From contig JACPQZ010000068.1 of NCBI GenBank assembly GCA_016190205.1, positions 1 to 43,325 of the forward strand: 43,325 nucleotides of DNA, given 5' to 3'. Source of the DNA: Candidatus Omnitrophota bacterium (lineage in GTDB: Bacteria > Omnitrophota > JACPQZ01). Position 1 is the first letter of the stretch, and each line of letters starts with the position of its first letter. Below, one piece after another: positions 13,281-23,005 of this stretch. Under the pieces are notes generated by a model that saw only the letters and a program-made list of their open reading frames with translations, searched no databases and was not told the origin of the DNA. The position numbers were made by a program, and so were the translations under genes.

Positions 13281-15731
13281 ATGCAAAGCGTACTCAAAAA
13301 ATCCGCGGCTCTATTTTTAACTTACACCCTCCTCATCACAGGCCTGCCCACTCCGGGTCTGGCATCTGATTTAGCCAAAGAATATCTCGCCGCCGAATCC
13401 TCGGTACACAGATCAAGGGACTTCCTCGGCCTTCTGGCGGCTGAAGCCGCCTTAGCAAAACTTTATCCCGACGTGGTGGGCCCAAACTCCCAGATGATAT
13501 TAAGGGAGGGCGAAGTTTATCTCGGCAGTGATCGCGAGCTCGTTCATTACGTGGAGGGGATTCCCCTGCTCCAGGATGCCTCGTTTAAGCTCCTGAGCGA
13601 CAGCCGCCTTCTCGTAAGTGCTGCCTTGAATCAAGCGCCCATGGAGATTCTCGTCACGCGCAGTCCTGTTCCGGGTTCCCTGCAATCAGACGGCCCCTTC
13701 GGAGACGGGGTGTACGTCAACCTGCTGGACCAGTTTGCAAACGTCTTCCGTACGCTTGCTTCGAAATTGGGATGGGGAGTGAATGCGAAATCGTTCCATG
13801 CGCTTGCCAGGAAATTGACCTGGGGACTGGCGCGACAGAAGGTGTTTTATGGGCGCGCCGAAGATCCAATTGAGCCTGACGAATGGAGCCTTTTTGATGA
13901 AGTGGCGGAGTTCGACGCTAGAATCAGACGCAGGCTCGGACCGAGGGATTATAAGATATGTTCGCTACTGTACCATGGTTGGCAGGAGTACGGAATTCAT
14001 CCTGCTAACTTTCTTCGTCTCATGAGGCACATGCCAAAGGGAATAAAAGATAAGGATATTTCCGCTGCAACGGATGAAGAAGTATGGGGCATGGTCGAAG
14101 AAGGCTTGATTCAGGCCCTGGATCCCAAAATGGAAAAGGATTCAATGGTCCGCCTCTCGGTGATTGAGCCGCTCGGACTCTATGCGTCACCTGAAGCTCG
14201 CGCGGCTTTAGAAAAAGCACTGTGGGATGATCCCGATAAAGCTGTGCAGAACCTGGCTCACAACACCCTGAAGGCGTCTGGAGTGAGCGGTGCCGTGAAC
14301 CAGGGGGATGGGGTAACAGGCAGAGCGGAAAAGAGCGATTTTCCCGGGGAGGGGGTTAAGGCTCTTCGCCCGGAGGCCAAAACCTGGGGTGAACTCGCGA
14401 GAAGAACGGTCAGAATCTTCTATGAACAATGGGCCGTAACTAAGACACCCTTTCCTACCAATGTGGAGTGGATATATGGTAAGCGCGACGTCGAGGTTGC
14501 CGATGCAATAAACCGCTTCAATCATTACAACGCCCGCAGAGGTGTAATGACCTCCGAGTTTGCCCGAACGCTTCTCAAAGTCATACGCGCGCGCATGCGC
14601 AAGCCTAAACCTAAAAACGCCACTTCCAAGTGGATACTGGCCCAAATAGCCCGTGAAGTGAAAAAGGAGGACTTCCCCGCCTCCGCCCATGAAGAATATG
14701 AGACGCACTTTAAGCCGCGGCTTGAGCAGTGGCTCCTTGAAGGGCTCGTGGACGCCGCCCAGCGGGACGGAATAGCGCTCACGCTGGATCCTTATGCCAA
14801 GGACTTGTTTGAGGCCATCGGATCCCATGTAACGGGATCGTTCCCACAGTGGTTCAGCATGTGGAGCGAACCCGATTCAAAGGAGTTCCTGTATGAAGTT
14901 CTTACAAAGTTATCGGACGAAGGCAGGCTTGCTTCTCAACTGACCTCTCAGGAAATCGTTGAGGCTATCTGGGGACACGTCAAAACGAGTAAAGGTCACG
15001 CCCCATCAGAAAAAGATTTACATCATTCACGCAAGATCAACTTTGAGCGGGTACGTGCAATTCTTTCCGGCGCTCAAGAGGTGCACGCGAAGTTAAGAGA
15101 AGCAGCAGGGCGGGGCGAAAACCACGAGCCCGGCGACGGCCTGACCGCGGCCCAGGGGGATGGTCTGCGGCCTTTATCGGCAGAAGAGGTGGTTGCGGGA
15201 GTTGTAACTGAAAATGGTGTTCATGCCGCGAATATCTCGGATCTCGCGCTCCTGCCCTCGCTTTTGGAGCGTCGCGGCATACGTCTGGGCAAAGGAGGCA
15301 TTAAACGGCAGGAGAGCCTCAATGTGGTGGCAGTGGGTGAAGAGCCGGTAGCCCTCATCCGAGCCCAGATTGCTGAGGGCCACATCACTCCGAGCCATGT
15401 GGCGGCCGCCTTGCCGGAATCGAGCGCCGCTCTGCGCGAGGAGCTTAGGGCCTTGGGTTGGGACATCCTGAATCCGGATCAAGTCTCACTTGAGAACCGA
15501 ATCGTGGTAGACAAGATCCAAAATTCGCTCTCCGTCTTATGGAAGACTGAACCCCTCCACTACGTCATTTCAGACCCGGGCTACGTCCCCGACCCCAAGT
15601 ACCGCCGCATCTCCATCTCGACCGCATACCTACAGGGCATTTTGGGAGACGGAATCGCCGTCATCCAAAACGCACCCACCTCTGAAGAAGCCGAGCACGC
15701 CACCCAAATATATCTAGACTGGTCTTCTTGA
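13281..15731 (+). CDS. Large exported protein of unknown function with GDG[VLI] linkers
   Basis: 816-aa ORF; N-terminal signal peptide MQSVLKKSAALFLTYTLLITGLPTPGLASD; no family recognised. Confidence 0.85.
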   Translation: MQSVLKKSAALFLTYTLLITGLPTPGLASDLAKEYLAAESSVHRSRDFLGLLAAEAALAKLYPDVVGPNSQMILREGEVYLGSDRELVHYVEGIPLLQDASFKLLSDSRLLVSAALNQAPMEILVTRSPVPGSLQSDGPFGDGVYVNLLDQFANVFRTLASKLGWGVNAKSFHALARKLTWGLARQKVFYGRAEDPIEPDEWSLFDEVAEFDARIRRRLGPRDYKICSLLYHGWQEYGIHPANFLRLMRHMPKGIKDKDISAATDEEVWGMVEEGLIQALDPKMEKDSMVRLSVIEPLGLYASPEARAALEKALWDDPDKAVQNLAHNTLKASGVSGAVNQGDGVTGRAEKSDFPGEGVKALRPEAKTWGELARRTVRIFYEQWAVTKTPFPTNVEWIYGKRDVEVADAINRFNHYNARRGVMTSEFARTLLKVIRARMRKPKPKNATSKWILAQIAREVKKEDFPASAHEEYETHFKPRLEQWLLEGLVDAAQRDGIALTLDPYAKDLFEAIGSHVTGSFPQWFSMWSEPDSKEFLYEVLTKLSDEGRLASQLTSQEIVEAIWGHVKTSKGHAPSEKDLHHSRKINFERVRAILSGAQEVHAKLREAAGRGENHEPGDGLTAAQGDGLRPLSAEEVVAGVVTENGVHAANISDLALLPSLLERRGIRLGKGGIKRQESLNVVAVGEEPVALIRAQIAEGHITPSHVAAALPESSAALREELRALGWDILNPDQVSLENRIVVDKIQNSLSVLWKTEPLHYVISDPGYVPDPKYRRISISTAYLQGILGDGIAVIQNAPTSEEAEHATQIYLDWSS

Positions 15732-15755: not shown

Positions 15756-17354
15756 TTAAGCGGGCTCACCCAACGGAAGGTCCACCAGGCAGGGATCGTG
15801 GTCCGAGATGCGCAACTTGAGATACTTATTGAGGTCGTTTAAGGTGCGGCCAAAGTGGGGAGCAAACCGATAACTCCCGTGCCCATGCGGTTGAGTGAGA
15901 TAGGCCTTGACGAAAATCCAGTCCAGGCGGAATTTCCCCACAAGGCCGGCCAAGGCCCTGTCCACCTTAAACGTGGTTTTATAACCCCACTTATCCCGCT
16001 CGTTTGAGTTGGAGAGCGTTCCCCGGTACCCCGCCGAACGCCCCCGGCCCCCCCGAAAATCGAAACGGCTCCCGTCATTAAACCGAAAGCGCTCTATAAT
16101 CTTAAAGAGCTCCCCCACACGGTTCGGGGCCAGCACAGGGACGTGCGGGGCCGTGGGATTTTGGTAATTCTTGGTCATGGTCGAGACCGCTTGCATGGTC
16201 CCCACAAAAAGGGCCTGCGGGAGGAAAGCGTCCAGCACACGGCTTAGGGCAAAGGCCGGGCTCATGAGCCCTTTCTCCACAACCCGGGGCGTGGAAGTTG
16301 GGCTTAAATCGTAAGGGGCGGAATTAAAATCCCCGGCCAAGATGACAGGGTGCCCGATCGCTTTAATGTAACTTAAGATCTCGGCCATCTGCTGGGTGCG
16401 AAGCTCCGGCCCGCACTTTATCTCCAGGTGCACATTGATGATCGAAATCCTCTCCTCGGGAAGTCCGGGCACCTCAAGGTCCACCCGGAAATAAGTCCTG
16501 CCGCCCATCTTGACCTCGCGGTGGAGGGATTCATTGAAAACCTCGCGCGCGCTGAAGCGGCGCAGCCTTTCCAAATAGGAAGTCTTCTGCTTTTCCCGCC
16601 CGTACCAGTCGTAGCCCTGATTATAAAGCCGGAATCCCTCCACGTAGACGATGGGGTAGCGTGAAAGAACGGCGCAGCCGAACAAACCCTTGAAGCGCTT
16701 GGGATCCACCCGGTAATACTCCGTGGCCTCGATGTCCGTTCCGCCCCCCTCAAACGTGATCGTCTCCCGGCCCAGGATGACAGGGTCCACCTCCAGATAT
16801 TCGGGGAGATAGGCGTAATTCATCCCCGCCGCCTGGGCCAGGTCTTTCACAGCGTTCCGGTAACCGGAGCGCTTGACACCCAAGTCCATTTCCTGGAGGA
16901 TGATGATATCAGCGTCCACCAGAAGTTTCCTTTCGTTTAAGACGCGCCGGTGCCTTCCCCTGCCCGGCCGGGCGCGCTTCGTGTCAATGAGCTTCTCGAA
17001 CGCCTCTTCATCGGTAAAGGCGGAGATCGCCTCAGCCATGTTGAGCGACTGCTCGATATTCCACGTGACCACGCGGACAAACTTTCCCAGCTCGGGGCTC
17101 GTCGGCCTATGGGGCGTCTTCCCCGCGTAGTGCGCCTCGTTGCTGATGATGGGGGTAAGCCACAGGTTTTCGAATCGCTGCCGGACCCGACCCTCCTGCG
17201 GATACTGATTCTCTGACATGAGCACGAGGTCCTCAAACGAAAGGAACTCGGGCTCCTGGTAGCGGACAAGTTTCATGCGTTCGTAAGTATCAGCTTGAAC
17301 AAGCTGCGGACACGACATAATCAACAACCCATAAAGAAGTGAGATATTTTTCAC
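15756..17354 (-). CDS. Exported endonuclease/exonuclease/phosphatase (EEP) superfamily protein
   Basis: VRVVTWNIEQSLNMAEA, IIILQEMDLGVKRSGYRN, VILAGDFNSAPYD, LRISDHDPCLVDL; signal peptide MKNISLLYGLLIMSCPQLVQAD. Confidence 0.85.
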   Translation of the reverse strand: MKNISLLYGLLIMSCPQLVQADTYERMKLVRYQEPEFLSFEDLVLMSENQYPQEGRVRQRFENLWLTPIISNEAHYAGKTPHRPTSPELGKFVRVVTWNIEQSLNMAEAISAFTDEEAFEKLIDTKRARPGRGRHRRVLNERKLLVDADIIILQEMDLGVKRSGYRNAVKDLAQAAGMNYAYLPEYLEVDPVILGRETITFEGGGTDIEATEYYRVDPKRFKGLFGCAVLSRYPIVYVEGFRLYNQGYDWYGREKQKTSYLERLRRFSAREVFNESLHREVKMGGRTYFRVDLEVPGLPEERISIINVHLEIKCGPELRTQQMAEILSYIKAIGHPVILAGDFNSAPYDLSPTSTPRVVEKGLMSPAFALSRVLDAFLPQALFVGTMQAVSTMTKNYQNPTAPHVPVLAPNRVGELFKIIERFRFNDGSRFDFRGGRGRSAGYRGTLSNSNERDKWGYKTTFKVDRALAGLVGKFRLDWIFVKAYLTQPHGHGSYRFAPHFGRTLNDLNKYLKLRISDHDPCLVDLPLGEPA

Positions 17355-20300
17355 GCCATAGTCATCAGCTTAAGAAGATTCTCATTCAACCTTCTTAGCT
17401 CTTCTCTATCGGTAACGAATACGGGCGGGATGTCAAATTGAAAAATCATGGCAAAATCTTTATCTGTAACTTCTGGCGATGGAATATGTTGAGGATATCT
17501 TCCAGTAAGCAGCACATACAAAGCCGACAGTTTTTCTATCTTTCTGCGATAATCCTGTATATGCAAAGCCCTCAGGCTTGCCACCACACCTTCCAACTGC
17601 CTAAAGTCACCTAGCACGCCGCCGACCGACTTAAAAATAAGCGCCTTGGCACCTTCTGGAAGGTCTTCCAGGTAATGATCGTCATCCAATGCAACGTCAA
17701 CAACGAATCCATTTCTGATCCCAGTTTGTAGCATCGCCCGGAGATCATTCATCCGATCTTCCTCTATTAACACGATCCTCTCATTCGCACTTGAAGATAG
17801 CGCGTTGAATACATGCACAAAACTGCCGAACATCATCCGCTGGTTATAGAGATGATTTTCAGGGATGAGGGTCGCAGGAATGAAATGCAAAAAAGGTTTC
17901 TTGTCGACGTGTGTAGCAACCCAATCTTTGGCAAGAGCATGTATCTGAGTCATTTCTTCATGCCATTTTGCAAGACTTGTGCGTTGATTTTGTTGAATCA
18001 GGGGCGGCTCCATCACCATGAGTCCCGGAGAAAATCTTTCGAACCGCGGAGCGTGATGTTGAGCCTCTCTCCGGGAACGAGCCGTATAAAAGCTGTTTCT
18101 ATCCGCAAACTCCAGAATGCCGTCGCCTCTCGTCATAGAAAACAACGCCGCACCGAGCGATCCAGCAAACTCCCTGTCCAGTTTAGATAGGGTTACGGTG
18201 ACACCTGCACGAAGAAGCTCTTCACCAAGTGACTTATTTATTCCATTTAACAACTCCTGTCCAGCCGGTCCTACGGTGTTCCCACCCGAAAGTATAAAGC
18301 GTTTGTCACCTCTCATCCTGTGGATATATCTTACCCATACAGCGATTTTTTCCGCCACTTCACGATAAAGCCTTTTCGCCTCTGCGTAGCCCACTCCCTC
18401 GGCTCTATCCAGCAGCTGACCTAAATCGTAAGCCGTAAAAATTTCTTTTCGTACAATAGTGGGGAGACCAAAAATCCGCGCGAGCTCCATCATCCCTTCC
18501 ACACCGACGTACGAAGCAATACCACCCTTGACCCCGCAACCTTCATCAAAAGGGGCATCCTCCCGTATATTTATCACAAATGCGCCGCCCTGCTCTATTC
18601 TGCCCATGTCGACGGCGCCGTTTTCCAGACGAGCGCTACCCACTCCCGTGCCCAGCGTCAACAGAACCCCGTTCCCTTCACCTTCCGCTGCCAATGTCGC
18701 AATTCCAAAAGCGCTGCCATCGTTCAAAAAAGCCGCCTGATTCGTTCCGTATTCTTGGCTCAATTCATCGCTCAAACGATTCAAAGCGGCATAATCCATT
18801 GCCACATCACCCTTACCAGATTCCTTCCAAACAAATTCGTAATTAACCATCCATACGACTCTTTTGCGTGCTACATCCACCACTCCCGGAAATGCGATGC
18901 CTATGCCCGAGACGGTACGATCCTGGGCCGTCTCTCTTACCATCGACTTGATAAGTTCTGCGAGCTGCGCACCGCCGGCGGTCACGGTATCCCTGACCAG
19001 TATCCTTTCCATGTGCCCGTCTGCAACCAAAACGCATTTGACTTTGTTTGCTCCAACATCCACCCCAATGTAGTTCCCCTCCCTCTCCCCCCATGCTGGC
19101 GGCCGGAACAAATGAGTTCTGGGCATAACTTCGAAAATCTCTTCTTCTTCTCTTACCGACAGCGGCAATATCTCTATCTTGGCACCCAGGTTTGAAAAAT
19201 AGTCGATCCGCTTAAAATGATCCCTGAGATAACCGCTTAACTGGTAGTACAAAACCTCGCTCATCTTCTTCGATGTCGATCCTATATATATTCTCTTGGC
19301 TCCAAACTCTATTGCGTAATTATAAATCATGGATCCAGCATACCTTAAGAGAACTGACCGAAGCGGTCCTTCGAACAAGTCTTTTGAGAGCGGTATGTTG
19401 ATCTCTCTAGCCCCGTACGGGCCACCTTCAACAGTGGCAACTAGTTTGTGGACCTGCGGGAACCTTTTGGCCGCCTGCTCGAACACGTGAGACCAATCAT
19501 TAATATCGCCGCTCGCGACGGCGCGTTGAAGCGGTATTTCAAGAGAAGTTTCATTCTTTAAAGATAGTATGGAGGGTACCCAGCGCTCACGCTTCCTAAC
19601 AATATAATTTCCAATAAACAAATTATTCACACCCGTCATATAACGAAAGGTGTTGATGGCTTCCTCGGGATTCTCAACCAGCGGCTCCTGTTTATTGAAC
19701 GAGGTATTGACAACCGCAGGAACGCCCGTCAACTCACCAATTCTATTGAGTAGTTTCCAATACCTGGGGTGGGTCCTCCTATTGACCGTTTGCGGCCTTG
19801 CCAACCTTTTTCCATACTGGTGTACACCGGACGCCAGGAGATGCTTCTTATCTTGACGGACATCATAGGCGACGATCATAAACGGCGCCTTGGCGGAGGC
19901 CACAAAATAGTCCTCGGCCGCCTCTTCAATAATGCTTAAAGCAGAAGGTCTCCACGACTGCCTTCCCTTTATGGCATTTGCCGTATTGTTAGCAGTATCA
20001 TCGAGAAGGTTTAGCAAAATGCTTCTCGCGCCGAGTGCTCGCGGTCCCGCCTCGCTCCTACCTTGAAACCAAGCGATAGGCTCGTTGCGCGCAATACACT
20101 GCGCTGCTTCCTCAACCAATCGCTCCTCATCCATCCTCGCGTAATCTCTACCTGCAACTAGACCCAAAGCCGACAGCGCATCCCTTATTTGCCGATCCGT
20201 ATACCCTGGTCCATAAGAGACGTGGTCCATTTCAAAAGCGACCGGATGGTGATAGATCTGTTTTGCAACAGTGAGCGCAGCTCCCAAAGCCGTCCCCGCG

Positions 20301-23005
20301 TCGCTTGCAAGAGGCTGCACAAATAAGTCTTCTCCTTTAACAAGTCCCTCTGAAATCAGTTTCCCGTTCGAGAGAATATTCAGAGCAATTCCTCCTCCCA
20401 AAGTCACTTTTTTAAGACCTCGTGTTCTGGGATGCGCCTGGAGGTAATACCTGACGATATCGGCGACGATCCGATCGGTCGCTTCCTGCAAAACAAAGGC
20501 CAGGTTTGCCAGGGGCCTGTCACCCACATGGATCGGATCTACATCTTGGCTGCTCTTTTCCGAAGGCAGTACCAAAGCGCTGACTCTATCCACAAACGAT
20601 TGTGACACTCGCACCTTTCCGCGGGCCATCTTCCCGTAATAAAGGTAATGCGGGTTCGCACTGAGTTGTCCCGTAGCATAGTCAAAACGCACATAATCGT
20701 TGAATAGCGCCCTTAACTTTCTCACGCGCCCCCGCTCGGTCTCATCACGGGGTTCGCCGTAAGGCGCAAACCCCATGACCTCTCCCTCTGCAAAGGTCGG
20801 TCTGAAACCGAGATATTCCGTCATGGCGGCCCACACCCAGCCCAGCGAGTTTGGAAGTTCATAGCGCGCTACTTCCTCCATGTCGCCATCATTGCCTACC
20901 CAAATGGACCCCGTTTCCGTATCACCGTATCCGTCCAGAGACACCACCAGCGTGGGGTCTTTGAAACCAGATGGATAATAGGCCGACGCGGCGTGAGCCA
21001 GATGGTGCCTCACGAATGAAACGCGCGGGGTGTAGGCCGTCCCATAGTATTCACGCAACCCTTTCAAAAAGTCCTCAAGGCTTGATACGCTGAACCTTGC
21101 CTTATTTTTCTCCGGTACGTTCCTACGCACGATATTCCCCGCCGGCGCGTTCTGTGCACCGATGTATCGCTGATCCATCTGTGCAAAAAACTCATCATTG
21201 GGCGCCGTAGAGTGTGGTGTATCAACATAGATATTGTAATTCCAGCCAATGGCTATGTGGCTGATATCGTCTAAGGTAATGCGTTCGTCTTTCAGCATCC
21301 TGTGAATTGCATTCACTGGAAAACGCGAGGTGTCGTGTTTGGTGCGCGATATCCTTTCTTCCTCCAATATGGAGACCACCCGTCCGTCTCTCACCAACAC
21401 GGCTGTTGAATCATGCCACGAACCCGAGATTCCGAGGATATACCCAGCCGTGGGTTGAGAAATATAATCGCCGTGGTATAACTTGATGCTCACACCCTTG
21501 TAGTACGTGCGATCCATAAGCCCCATGTGTTCAATGGGGACAATCTCCTTCTTATGAAAGCGCAGCAGGCTATCACTGTAATATACATCTACGATCCGGT
21601 CCTTCGTGATATCCAGTCGTATGACACCGGGCAAGCCAGCCAGATACCGCTGCACATCCTCCTCGGAATATACTTCTGCTCCGTTACAAAAATCGACGAC
21701 GGCATCTATGACTGCGGCAGGCATGTCGATGCCGTCTTCCCTCAGCATCTCCATCAAGAAACGCCGCTCATCCGCAAGGCGATTCGACACCCCGCTTATC
21801 TCGTTCAGCCCCGCTTCTATCCCCCTTCCGGGTTCTAATAACCATGTCCTCAAGACTACGGAGTCGACGCCCGCATTTAAAACCATAGGCAATGAGCCAC
21901 TGTTCATGCCGCCGTCTATTTCGATGGCCACATTCCGGATCCCGTTCTCGTAGAACATTTTCTTGAGCCCTGCCACCCGTTCGAACGTGCCCGGAATAAA
22001 CGTCCTGCCACTCCCACCGGGGGTTACGGCCATTAATACGATCTTGTTCATTTGATCGCCGAGCATGCCAAACACGCCGTTCAGCACAGACAAAGGCGTG
22101 TCCGGATTCAACACCAACCCTGCTTCGTAGCCTGATTTCTTGATATATCCGATCAGCGCCGCGAGAGACCCGGGGTCCGCGAAAGACTCGTAATGAACTG
22201 AAACGCTGTTCTGGCCCTCCTTAAGGCCCGCCGTTTTTATCCTGTCGATAAGCGAGGCATCGGGCTCCACGCACATCAGATGAACGTCTATAGGAAGGTT
22301 GACATCGGCTGTTCGGCTAATCTGGCTTGCGCAGTCGAAAGGAAGGGAGCCCGGCGTGAGCACGCCGTCCAGATGGTCTATGTGGACAGCGCCGACGCCC
22401 GCTTTTTGCGCACGTCTGACCTCCTCGATTAGGCCAGAATCAGCCGCCCCCATTAATGAGAATGACACCCGCGTCCGGGAACCCGCGAATTCTTCAGATC
22501 CATCAGCCGCCTGGTCATCGGATAACGGATCGACACGGTACCTATAGGCCTCTTCACCGGACCATCCCACGCCATCGCCCATGAGAGATGCAGCACGATC
22601 CATCGCGGCAACGCGCGCCTCAAAACGCGCGCCATACCGCCGAAATGGAATCACAACCCCGTTCTCCTCCACGGAGATGTAGTTTAAATCGAACTCGTAA
22701 CCATTGTGGGGTTGTAACAGGTCCCGAAAACGGCTGAGCAGAGCTTCGCGCGTTCCGTGCTTCATGAGAAAGTGCGAGGCTATTGAAAATACGGCGGCCA
22801 TAAACTGGGCATCCGCCAGGCTGGATCTTTTTATCTCAACATGGTCTTCGGTTGGCTGGAACTGCTGGAAGATGGATGGAGAGGCTAAAGCAGAGGCTTT
22901 GATGAAGATGCTGTTACCGGCGTCGGCCGGCTGGGCCACGATCTGGCAGGCGATGACTACCCACAGTACGCCCTGTGCTGGAATACGCTGCCCTTTTCCA
23001 TTCAT
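17351..23005 (-). CDS. 1884-aa exported fusion: Rpe-like epimerase + NodU/CmcH-type carbamoyltransferase + unknown + ROK-type kinase + unknown C-terminus
   Basis: Rpe: FSLMGAADSGLIEEVRRAQKAGVGAVHIDHLDG...DVHLMC...VTPGGSGRTFIPGTFERV...EIDGGMN; carbamoyltransferase: GISGSWHDSTAVLVRDGRVVSILEEERISRTKHD...HHLAHAASAYYPSGF...EAGPRALGARSIL...NTSFNKQEPLVENPEEAI; ROK: NYIGVDVGANKVKCVLVADG...GIAFPGVVD...LTLGTGVGSA...ILSGGNTVGPAG. Confidence 0.9.
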   Translation of the reverse strand: MNGKGQRIPAQGVLWVVIACQIVAQPADAGNSIFIKASALASPSIFQQFQPTEDHVEIKRSSLADAQFMAAVFSIASHFLMKHGTREALLSRFRDLLQPHNGYEFDLNYISVEENGVVIPFRRYGARFEARVAAMDRAASLMGDGVGWSGEEAYRYRVDPLSDDQAADGSEEFAGSRTRVSFSLMGAADSGLIEEVRRAQKAGVGAVHIDHLDGVLTPGSLPFDCASQISRTADVNLPIDVHLMCVEPDASLIDRIKTAGLKEGQNSVSVHYESFADPGSLAALIGYIKKSGYEAGLVLNPDTPLSVLNGVFGMLGDQMNKIVLMAVTPGGSGRTFIPGTFERVAGLKKMFYENGIRNVAIEIDGGMNSGSLPMVLNAGVDSVVLRTWLLEPGRGIEAGLNEISGVSNRLADERRFLMEMLREDGIDMPAAVIDAVVDFCNGAEVYSEEDVQRYLAGLPGVIRLDITKDRIVDVYYSDSLLRFHKKEIVPIEHMGLMDRTYYKGVSIKLYHGDYISQPTAGYILGISGSWHDSTAVLVRDGRVVSILEEERISRTKHDTSRFPVNAIHRMLKDERITLDDISHIAIGWNYNIYVDTPHSTAPNDEFFAQMDQRYIGAQNAPAGNIVRRNVPEKNKARFSVSSLEDFLKGLREYYGTAYTPRVSFVRHHLAHAASAYYPSGFKDPTLVVSLDGYGDTETGSIWVGNDGDMEEVARYELPNSLGWVWAAMTEYLGFRPTFAEGEVMGFAPYGEPRDETERGRVRKLRALFNDYVRFDYATGQLSANPHYLYYGKMARGKVRVSQSFVDRVSALVLPSEKSSQDVDPIHVGDRPLANLAFVLQEATDRIVADIVRYYLQAHPRTRGLKKVTLGGGIALNILSNGKLISEGLVKGEDLFVQPLASDAGTALGAALTVAKQIYHHPVAFEMDHVSYGPGYTDRQIRDALSALGLVAGRDYARMDEERLVEEAAQCIARNEPIAWFQGRSEAGPRALGARSILLNLLDDTANNTANAIKGRQSWRPSALSIIEEAAEDYFVASAKAPFMIVAYDVRQDKKHLLASGVHQYGKRLARPQTVNRRTHPRYWKLLNRIGELTGVPAVVNTSFNKQEPLVENPEEAINTFRYMTGVNNLFIGNYIVRKRERWVPSILSLKNETSLEIPLQRAVASGDINDWSHVFEQAAKRFPQVHKLVATVEGGPYGAREINIPLSKDLFEGPLRSVLLRYAGSMIYNYAIEFGAKRIYIGSTSKKMSEVLYYQLSGYLRDHFKRIDYFSNLGAKIEILPLSVREEEEIFEVMPRTHLFRPPAWGEREGNYIGVDVGANKVKCVLVADGHMERILVRDTVTAGGAQLAELIKSMVRETAQDRTVSGIGIAFPGVVDVARKRVVWMVNYEFVWKESGKGDVAMDYAALNRLSDELSQEYGTNQAAFLNDGSAFGIATLAAEGEGNGVLLTLGTGVGSARLENGAVDMGRIEQGGAFVINIREDAPFDEGCGVKGGIASYVGVEGMMELARIFGLPTIVRKEIFTAYDLGQLLDRAEGVGYAEAKRLYREVAEKIAVWVRYIHRMRGDKRFILSGGNTVGPAGQELLNGINKSLGEELLRAGVTVTLSKLDREFAGSLGAALFSMTRGDGILEFADRNSFYTARSRREAQHHAPRFERFSPGLMVMEPPLIQQNQRTSLAKWHEEMTQIHALAKDWVATHVDKKPFLHFIPATLIPENHLYNQRMMFGSFVHVFNALSSSANERIVLIEEDRMNDLRAMLQTGIRNGFVVDVALDDDHYLEDLPEGAKALIFKSVGGVLGDFRQLEGVVASLRALHIQDYRRKIEKLSALYVLLTGRYPQHIPSPEVTDKDFAMIFQFDIPPVFVTDREELRRLNENLLKLMTMA

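Follow-up and report, generated by a model that had tools for sequence, protein, structure and literature searches.

Giant ORFs are well documented in the Omnitrophota, where they show few annotated domains and have been linked to adhesive, degradative or predatory roles (PMC10066038; PMC12057145). In Velamenicoccus archaeovorus one such protein has 39,678 aa; these giants are viewed as surface proteins, and members of the phylum, which have giant ORFs and pili, have been proposed to live as predators or parasites (PMC10066038). Among the class III O-carbamoyltransferases, a second point of reference, GdmN has the iron ligands H133, H137, D156 and D333 and the base H27 (PMC9633730). The literature covered here, from which preprints were excluded so that prior notice there is possible, contained no account of signal-led multi-enzyme proteins of sugar metabolism with shared end modules.

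The stretch of 43,325 nucleotides of Omnitrophota DNA analysed here (the window) encodes a fusion of an epimerase-like, a carbamoyltransferase and a ROK-like domain between two orphan end modules. Its product is best explained, with a probability of about 50%, as a modular polyenzyme that is targeted to the membrane or exported and whose core activity would be ATP-dependent sugar O-carbamoylation. The features of the locus are:

17351-23005, minus strand: whole ORF, 1884 aa from ATG to stop, with a colinear full-length homologue (L107)
22916-23005, minus strand: signal-peptide-like N-terminus (aa 1-30), in which a positive n-region (MNGKGQR) precedes a hydrophobic core and an ADA|G-like end
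22523-22891, minus strand: N-terminal module, NTM (aa 39-161), in which a conserved hydrophobic helix region comes after a LAxPSxFQ-like motif
21851-22468, minus strand: Rpe-like epimerase domain (Ribul_P_3_epim, PF00834; aa 180-385; Pfam E 1e-32)
21440-21850, minus strand: linker 1 (aa 386-522), an orphan domain in which numerous charged positions are invariant (RFHK, E-GL-DR; alignment A9)
19592-21439, minus strand: class III O-carbamoyltransferase, Kae1-like and YrdC-like (PF02543 and PF16861; aa 523-1138)
19073-19591, minus strand: linker 2 (aa 1139-1311), an orphan domain preceding the ROK-like domain
18143-19072, minus strand: ROK-like domain (PF00480; aa 1312-1621; Pfam E 5e-9, 36.5 bits against a cut-off of 22.9)
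17354-18016, minus strand: C-terminal module, CTM (aa 1664-1884), which ends in Ala and in relatives lies at the end of the protein
15756-17354, minus strand: signal-led protein of the endonuclease/exonuclease/phosphatase family (532 aa), whose start overlaps the stop of the fusion gene by 4 nt

The sequence-only reading had described the fusion gene as a single uninterrupted ORF, and this is confirmed, the frame being open across 1884 codons from the ATG. Just six further open codons lie upstream of this ATG, and initiation at the next sites downstream would truncate the conserved NTM, so that a frameshift or a wrong start is ruled out. All Pfam domain matches on the protein exceed the gathering cut-offs, which together with the conservation of active sites rules out chance domain hits. 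The three enzyme domains proposed earlier are thus Pfam-supported, at coordinates that agree to within tens of bases, while the stretches formerly left as unknown now correspond to the NTM, linker 1, linker 2 and the CTM. NCBIfam matches agree in kind with those of Pfam, none of them reaching an equivalog cut-off. The fusion gene has a GC of 0.513 and a GC3 of 0.552, versus about 0.58 and about 0.69 in its neighbors, which are housekeeping genes; this AT shift in such surroundings, combined with a patchy distribution in the phylum, suggests horizontal transfer. The adjoining gene of the endonuclease/exonuclease/phosphatase family is a possible operon partner. Elsewhere in the window, the plus-strand gene at 13281-15731 codes for a signal-led 816-aa protein that matches HEAT weakly; its GC3 is lowered to 0.590, and it is possibly another acquired large exported protein. 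A 6S RNA is present at 480-662 on the minus strand (Rfam, 69.9 bits).

The stretch from the epimerase to the ROK-like domain constitutes a unit of about 1450 aa (Rpe-linker 1-carbamoyltransferase-linker 2-ROK). When 85,462 species genomes were scanned for its linker 1/carbamoyltransferase stretch with short peptide patterns, which distant relatives may escape, five loci were recovered, four from genomes named Omnitrophota or Omnitrophica and one from a MAG named 'bacterium'. The unit is colinear in all five as far as they are readable (in L109 it is cut by the contig end), with 39-56% identity to the window, and this recurrence, which brings the number of assemblies to six including the window, rules out an assembly chimera. 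A search for the same architecture elsewhere was thus successful: L107 (RS_3_17) reproduces it in 1804 aa from the signal to the C-terminus, with 39% identity over its length, and other carriers measure 2164 aa (L108), at least 3025 aa (L105) and at least 18,962 aa (L106, from UBA6253). Among 384 sampled genomes of the phylum, linker 1 is clear in four, which belong to four different families; no relative of the unit was found in viral contigs. In trees the window unit groups with L105, L106 and L108, with L107 and L109 apart (100/100). Despite this separation the window shares both NTM and CTM with L107, and its CTM pairs with that of a carrier of starch synthase and dehydrogenase domains (98/96), a pattern which fits, short of proof, module exchange among carriers.

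The carbamoyltransferase is the most conserved part of the unit, its two Pfam domains showing 66-72% mean pairwise identity as against 41-48% for the other domains. Both Carbam_trans_N (aa 523-911, profile positions 2-346 of 346) and Carbam_trans_C (aa 968-1138, positions 1-170 of 170) are complete, with a best E of 5e-47, and PDB relatives include the decarbamoylnovobiocin carbamoyltransferase (E 5e-67), TobZ (E 3e-64) and GdmN. The iron ligands H667, H671, D691 and D902 and the general base H531 are kept in all six copies. Likewise invariant in 6/6 copies are H208, D210, H242 and D364 of the epimerase domain, which, following established knowledge of the Rpe family, we take to be its metal-binding and catalytic residues. 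The active sites of both enzymes are thus intact. The relatives of the epimerase domain in the PDB comprise several Rpe structures (1rpx, E 1e-25); its NCBIfam rpe score of 118.1 bits falls short of the equivalog cut-off of 212.6, and it is therefore termed Rpe-like rather than Rpe. All fused copies have RTW in place of the canonical phosphate-site AGS and form a clade of their own, apart from the free-standing Rpe of the same genomes.

These observations bear on the sugar-modifying assembly line that had been among the readings proposed from the DNA: its multi-enzyme part is the best fit, with active sites kept in 6/6 copies, but a strict assembly line is not supported because no carrier domain was found. 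In the polyenzyme favored here, the N-terminal Sec-type signal and the NTM would carry the polypeptide as far as the inner membrane or through it, the CTM might serve in anchoring, recognition or assembly from the C-terminal end, and a fixed, horizontally moving enzyme block would lie between them. The iron-dependent carbamoyltransferase would adenylate carbamoyl phosphate with ATP and then pass the carbamoyl group to a sugar hydroxyl; the Rpe-like domain could epimerise the same sugar in the form of a phosphate or a comparable ester, and its binding or phosphorylation might fall to the ROK-like domain. In this scheme we infer that the protein is targeted to the membrane, that its substrate is a sugar, that the domains cooperate and what the end modules do.

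Comparing the large ORFs of relatives by sequence revealed both end modules in proteins with other cargo, the NTM being present in 27 and the CTM in 31 of the 384 phylum genomes. A strong hydrophobic segment within the first 110 residues is found in 21 of 24 members of this class, and 21 of the 24 have a following LAP-like motif; the n-region is positive in most of them and AxA-like ends are recurrent. The segment of the window protein is weaker than most (mean hydropathy 1.96 over 14 residues), and the strongest one in L107 falls within its NTM. L107 and L109 likewise start with a hydrophobic segment, of a sequence differing from that of the window, so the export-like start noticed earlier ahead of the fusion is conserved in kind. 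The lipobox-like VIAC is not: the N-termini of L107 and L109 have no lipobox, and a lipoprotein is therefore not supported. The CTM match stops 0-10 residues short of the stop codon in every ORF examined, and all 28 aligned copies (alignment A3) end in Ala, mostly as AA or SA, which could be a sorting or protease-recognition tail. Its AF2 model, a low-confidence one from a two-sequence input (pLDDT 62), is alpha/beta and had no match at E<=0.001 in a PDB fold search; by sequence, phmmer against the PDB gave chance-level matches only (best E 1.6), a profile gave a best E of 0.12, and there was no convincing Pfam relative. For the NTM, too, sequence searches of Pfam and the PDB gave no convincing relative. 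In the window genome each module occurs once, in the fusion gene, and a crude DNA pattern with little power recovered no other signal and LAP start in it. No NTM or CTM is seen within the available stretches of L105, L106 and L108. This counts against the polyenzyme favored here, as do the weakness of the hydrophobic segment in the window protein and the losses in the ROK-like domain described below.

Carbamoyltransferase activity requires ATP and carbamoyl phosphate, both cytosolic, and simple Sec export therefore conflicts with it. This is the main conflict in the best explanation, and the clash of the ATP requirement with the export signal adds weight to its rivals. One of these, unlikely in itself, is a multi-enzyme protein that is fully cytosolic or tethered to the inner membrane facing the cytosol, with the hydrophobic N-terminus as an anchor or targeting helix and the domains using cytosolic ATP and sugar phosphates. 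It accords with a class cargo that uses cytosolic metabolites (carbamoyltransferase, PPDK, HPr, PFK, PRK and starch synthase) and with the window genome, in whose assembly (92.8% complete) no free-standing Rpe was found and the fused domain is the sole Rpe-family match; this would suggest that the epimerase domain acts in the cytosol, unless the missing Rpe reflects an assembly gap. Three unit-bearing relatives encode a free-standing Rpe as well. However, under the positive-inside rule the positive n-region of most members would put the downstream part outside, and the recurrence of the AxA-like ends with the motif that follows them also argues against a cytosolic protein.

The domains carried by other members, as detected with Pfam, include starch synthase, GH77, glycogen debranching enzyme, amylase, PPDK with PEP-utilizer, NUDIX, PMI, HPr, CofD, ARMT1, radical SAM, DegT aminotransferase and PFK, many of them recognised weakly. 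L105 has a GAPDH after the unit, and in L108 two adjoining ORFs contain, respectively, an aminotransferase with PGM/PMM and PMI, and an FBPase. The L108 region (L108:2-19835) comprises three adjoining mega-ORFs with sugar enzymes, of at least 2420, 2164 and 2023 aa, the third with its own signal-like start. A further signal-led protein, from G056 (L042:6381-11998, plus strand), is a phosphofructokinase fused to HEAT repeats. The theme of this cargo is sugar phosphates and central carbon, and such enzymes normally depend on cytosolic metabolites. The largest frame, in UBA6253 (L106; L045-L048, G050:C5:333186-390071, minus strand), spans at least 56.9 kb, its 5' end being lost at a contig end. 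It contains kinase, PMI, Rpe, carbamoyltransferase, ROK, HAD, starch synthase, GH77 and debranching enzyme domains, along with CofD, methyltransferase, radical SAM, GNAT and sigma-70 region 4, and near aa 11394 a hydrophobic segment resembling a signal lies within the frame.

The presence of the unit within such different carriers, including this frame with its internal segment, and the independent orphan linkers between the enzyme domains could be accommodated by a polyprotein from which separate enzymes are released by cleavage once it has been exported, as had also been suggested from the DNA. This is nonetheless very improbable, as there is no protease domain or conserved cleavage-like spacer and the linkers themselves are conserved. 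Linker 1, which is seen clearly only together with the unit, yielded an AF2 model with a pLDDT of 80 and on this prediction looks like a folded domain rather than a flexible spacer; its model had no match at E<=0.001 in a PDB fold search, and its sequence has no convincing Pfam or PDB relative. Linker 2 also precedes a ROK domain in a 3619-aa ORF of G001.

The ROK-like domain retains the ATP-side DxG and GTG motifs, with D1316 and the catalytic Asp1429 present in the window copy; the catalytic Asp is kept in four of five copies and is Asn in L107. As for the epimerase, these residues are assigned from established knowledge of the family. In all five, Gly replaces the His of the sugar/zinc ExGH motif and Ala the Glu of GCxE, and the CxCGxxGCxE signature is absent. 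The domain thus appears to have a ROK-like fold, but its role as a kinase is doubtful because these sugar/zinc signatures are not kept. Catalytic repurposing, a third suggestion of the sequence-only reading, accordingly fits the ROK-like domain alone. Its broader form, in which an exported or surface protein keeps its enzyme domains mainly as binding or structural modules, is improbable: although the signal-led start, the degenerate ROK-like domain, the weak Pfam recognition of many cargo domains and the published view of Omnitrophota giants as surface proteins (PMC10066038) would favor it, the carbamoyltransferase has its full catalytic set and the strongest conservation, and the metal ligands of the epimerase are invariant.

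The ATP problem would also be removed by delivery into a host or prey cell, which would supply ATP, carbamoyl phosphate and sugar phosphates, the protein serving to rewire or tag the sugars of that cell. The proposed predatory or parasitic lifestyle of Omnitrophota with giant ORFs and pili (PMC10066038) and the recurrence of a whole set of sugar-phosphate enzymes in signal-led mega-proteins are consistent with this, but no translocation machinery is linked to the fusion protein. The four unit-bearing genomes gave no match to the ATP/ADP translocase family, a result that does not imply absence given that the controls were silent too. On balance such delivery is quite improbable. More generally, we tentatively raise the unlikely possibility that the signal-led, C-terminally tagged mega-proteins are an undescribed Omnitrophota class that provides a second complement of enzymes for sugar and central-carbon metabolism (epimerase, kinases, PFK, FBPase, GAPDH, PMI, PGM, PPDK, starch synthase and carbamoyltransferase), located beyond the bacterium's own cytosol. 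Their site would be a separate compartment or the inside of a host or prey cell, and the NTM and CTM would form a new protein-targeting system. If the class is truly exported, ATP-dependent sugar metabolism would take place outside the cytosol of the producing cell.

Returning to the polyenzyme reading, a mobile enzyme block, present in small as well as giant carriers and retaining intact active sites, offers a concrete, testable activity for proteins of obscure function. Its recurrence suggests that the poorly known phylum Omnitrophota has an undescribed class of modular multi-enzyme proteins, which is puzzling in its cell location and has so far been seen nowhere else, and the NTM and CTM are candidate targeting signals by which the whole class could be listed by search.

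In comparison with known systems, the carbamoyltransferase has the same complete Kae1-like and YrdC-like domains, iron ligands and general-base His as TobZ, GdmN, NovN, CmcH and NodU; the known class III O-carbamoyltransferases matched here are separate enzymes, whereas that of the window is embedded between an epimerase and a ROK-like domain behind a signal-like start. The epimerase domain resembles Rpe in family and in its His, Asp, His and Asp active residues, but differs in its sub-cut-off rpe score, its RTW phosphate site and its separate clade. With the ROK family sugar kinases the window domain shares the DxG and GTG motifs, the catalytic Asp and a score above the Pfam cut-off, but not the ExGH and CxCGxxGCxE zinc/sugar signature. 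The giant ORFs of the Omnitrophota are from the same phylum, and a homologous unit lies within the UBA6253 frame of at least 18,962 aa; however, the window gene, at 5.65 kb, is below the length of that class (>20 kb) and its 1884-aa product has its own end modules. Whereas the published giants are described as having few annotated domains and adhesin or degradative roles, the proteins described here carry enzymes of sugar metabolism.
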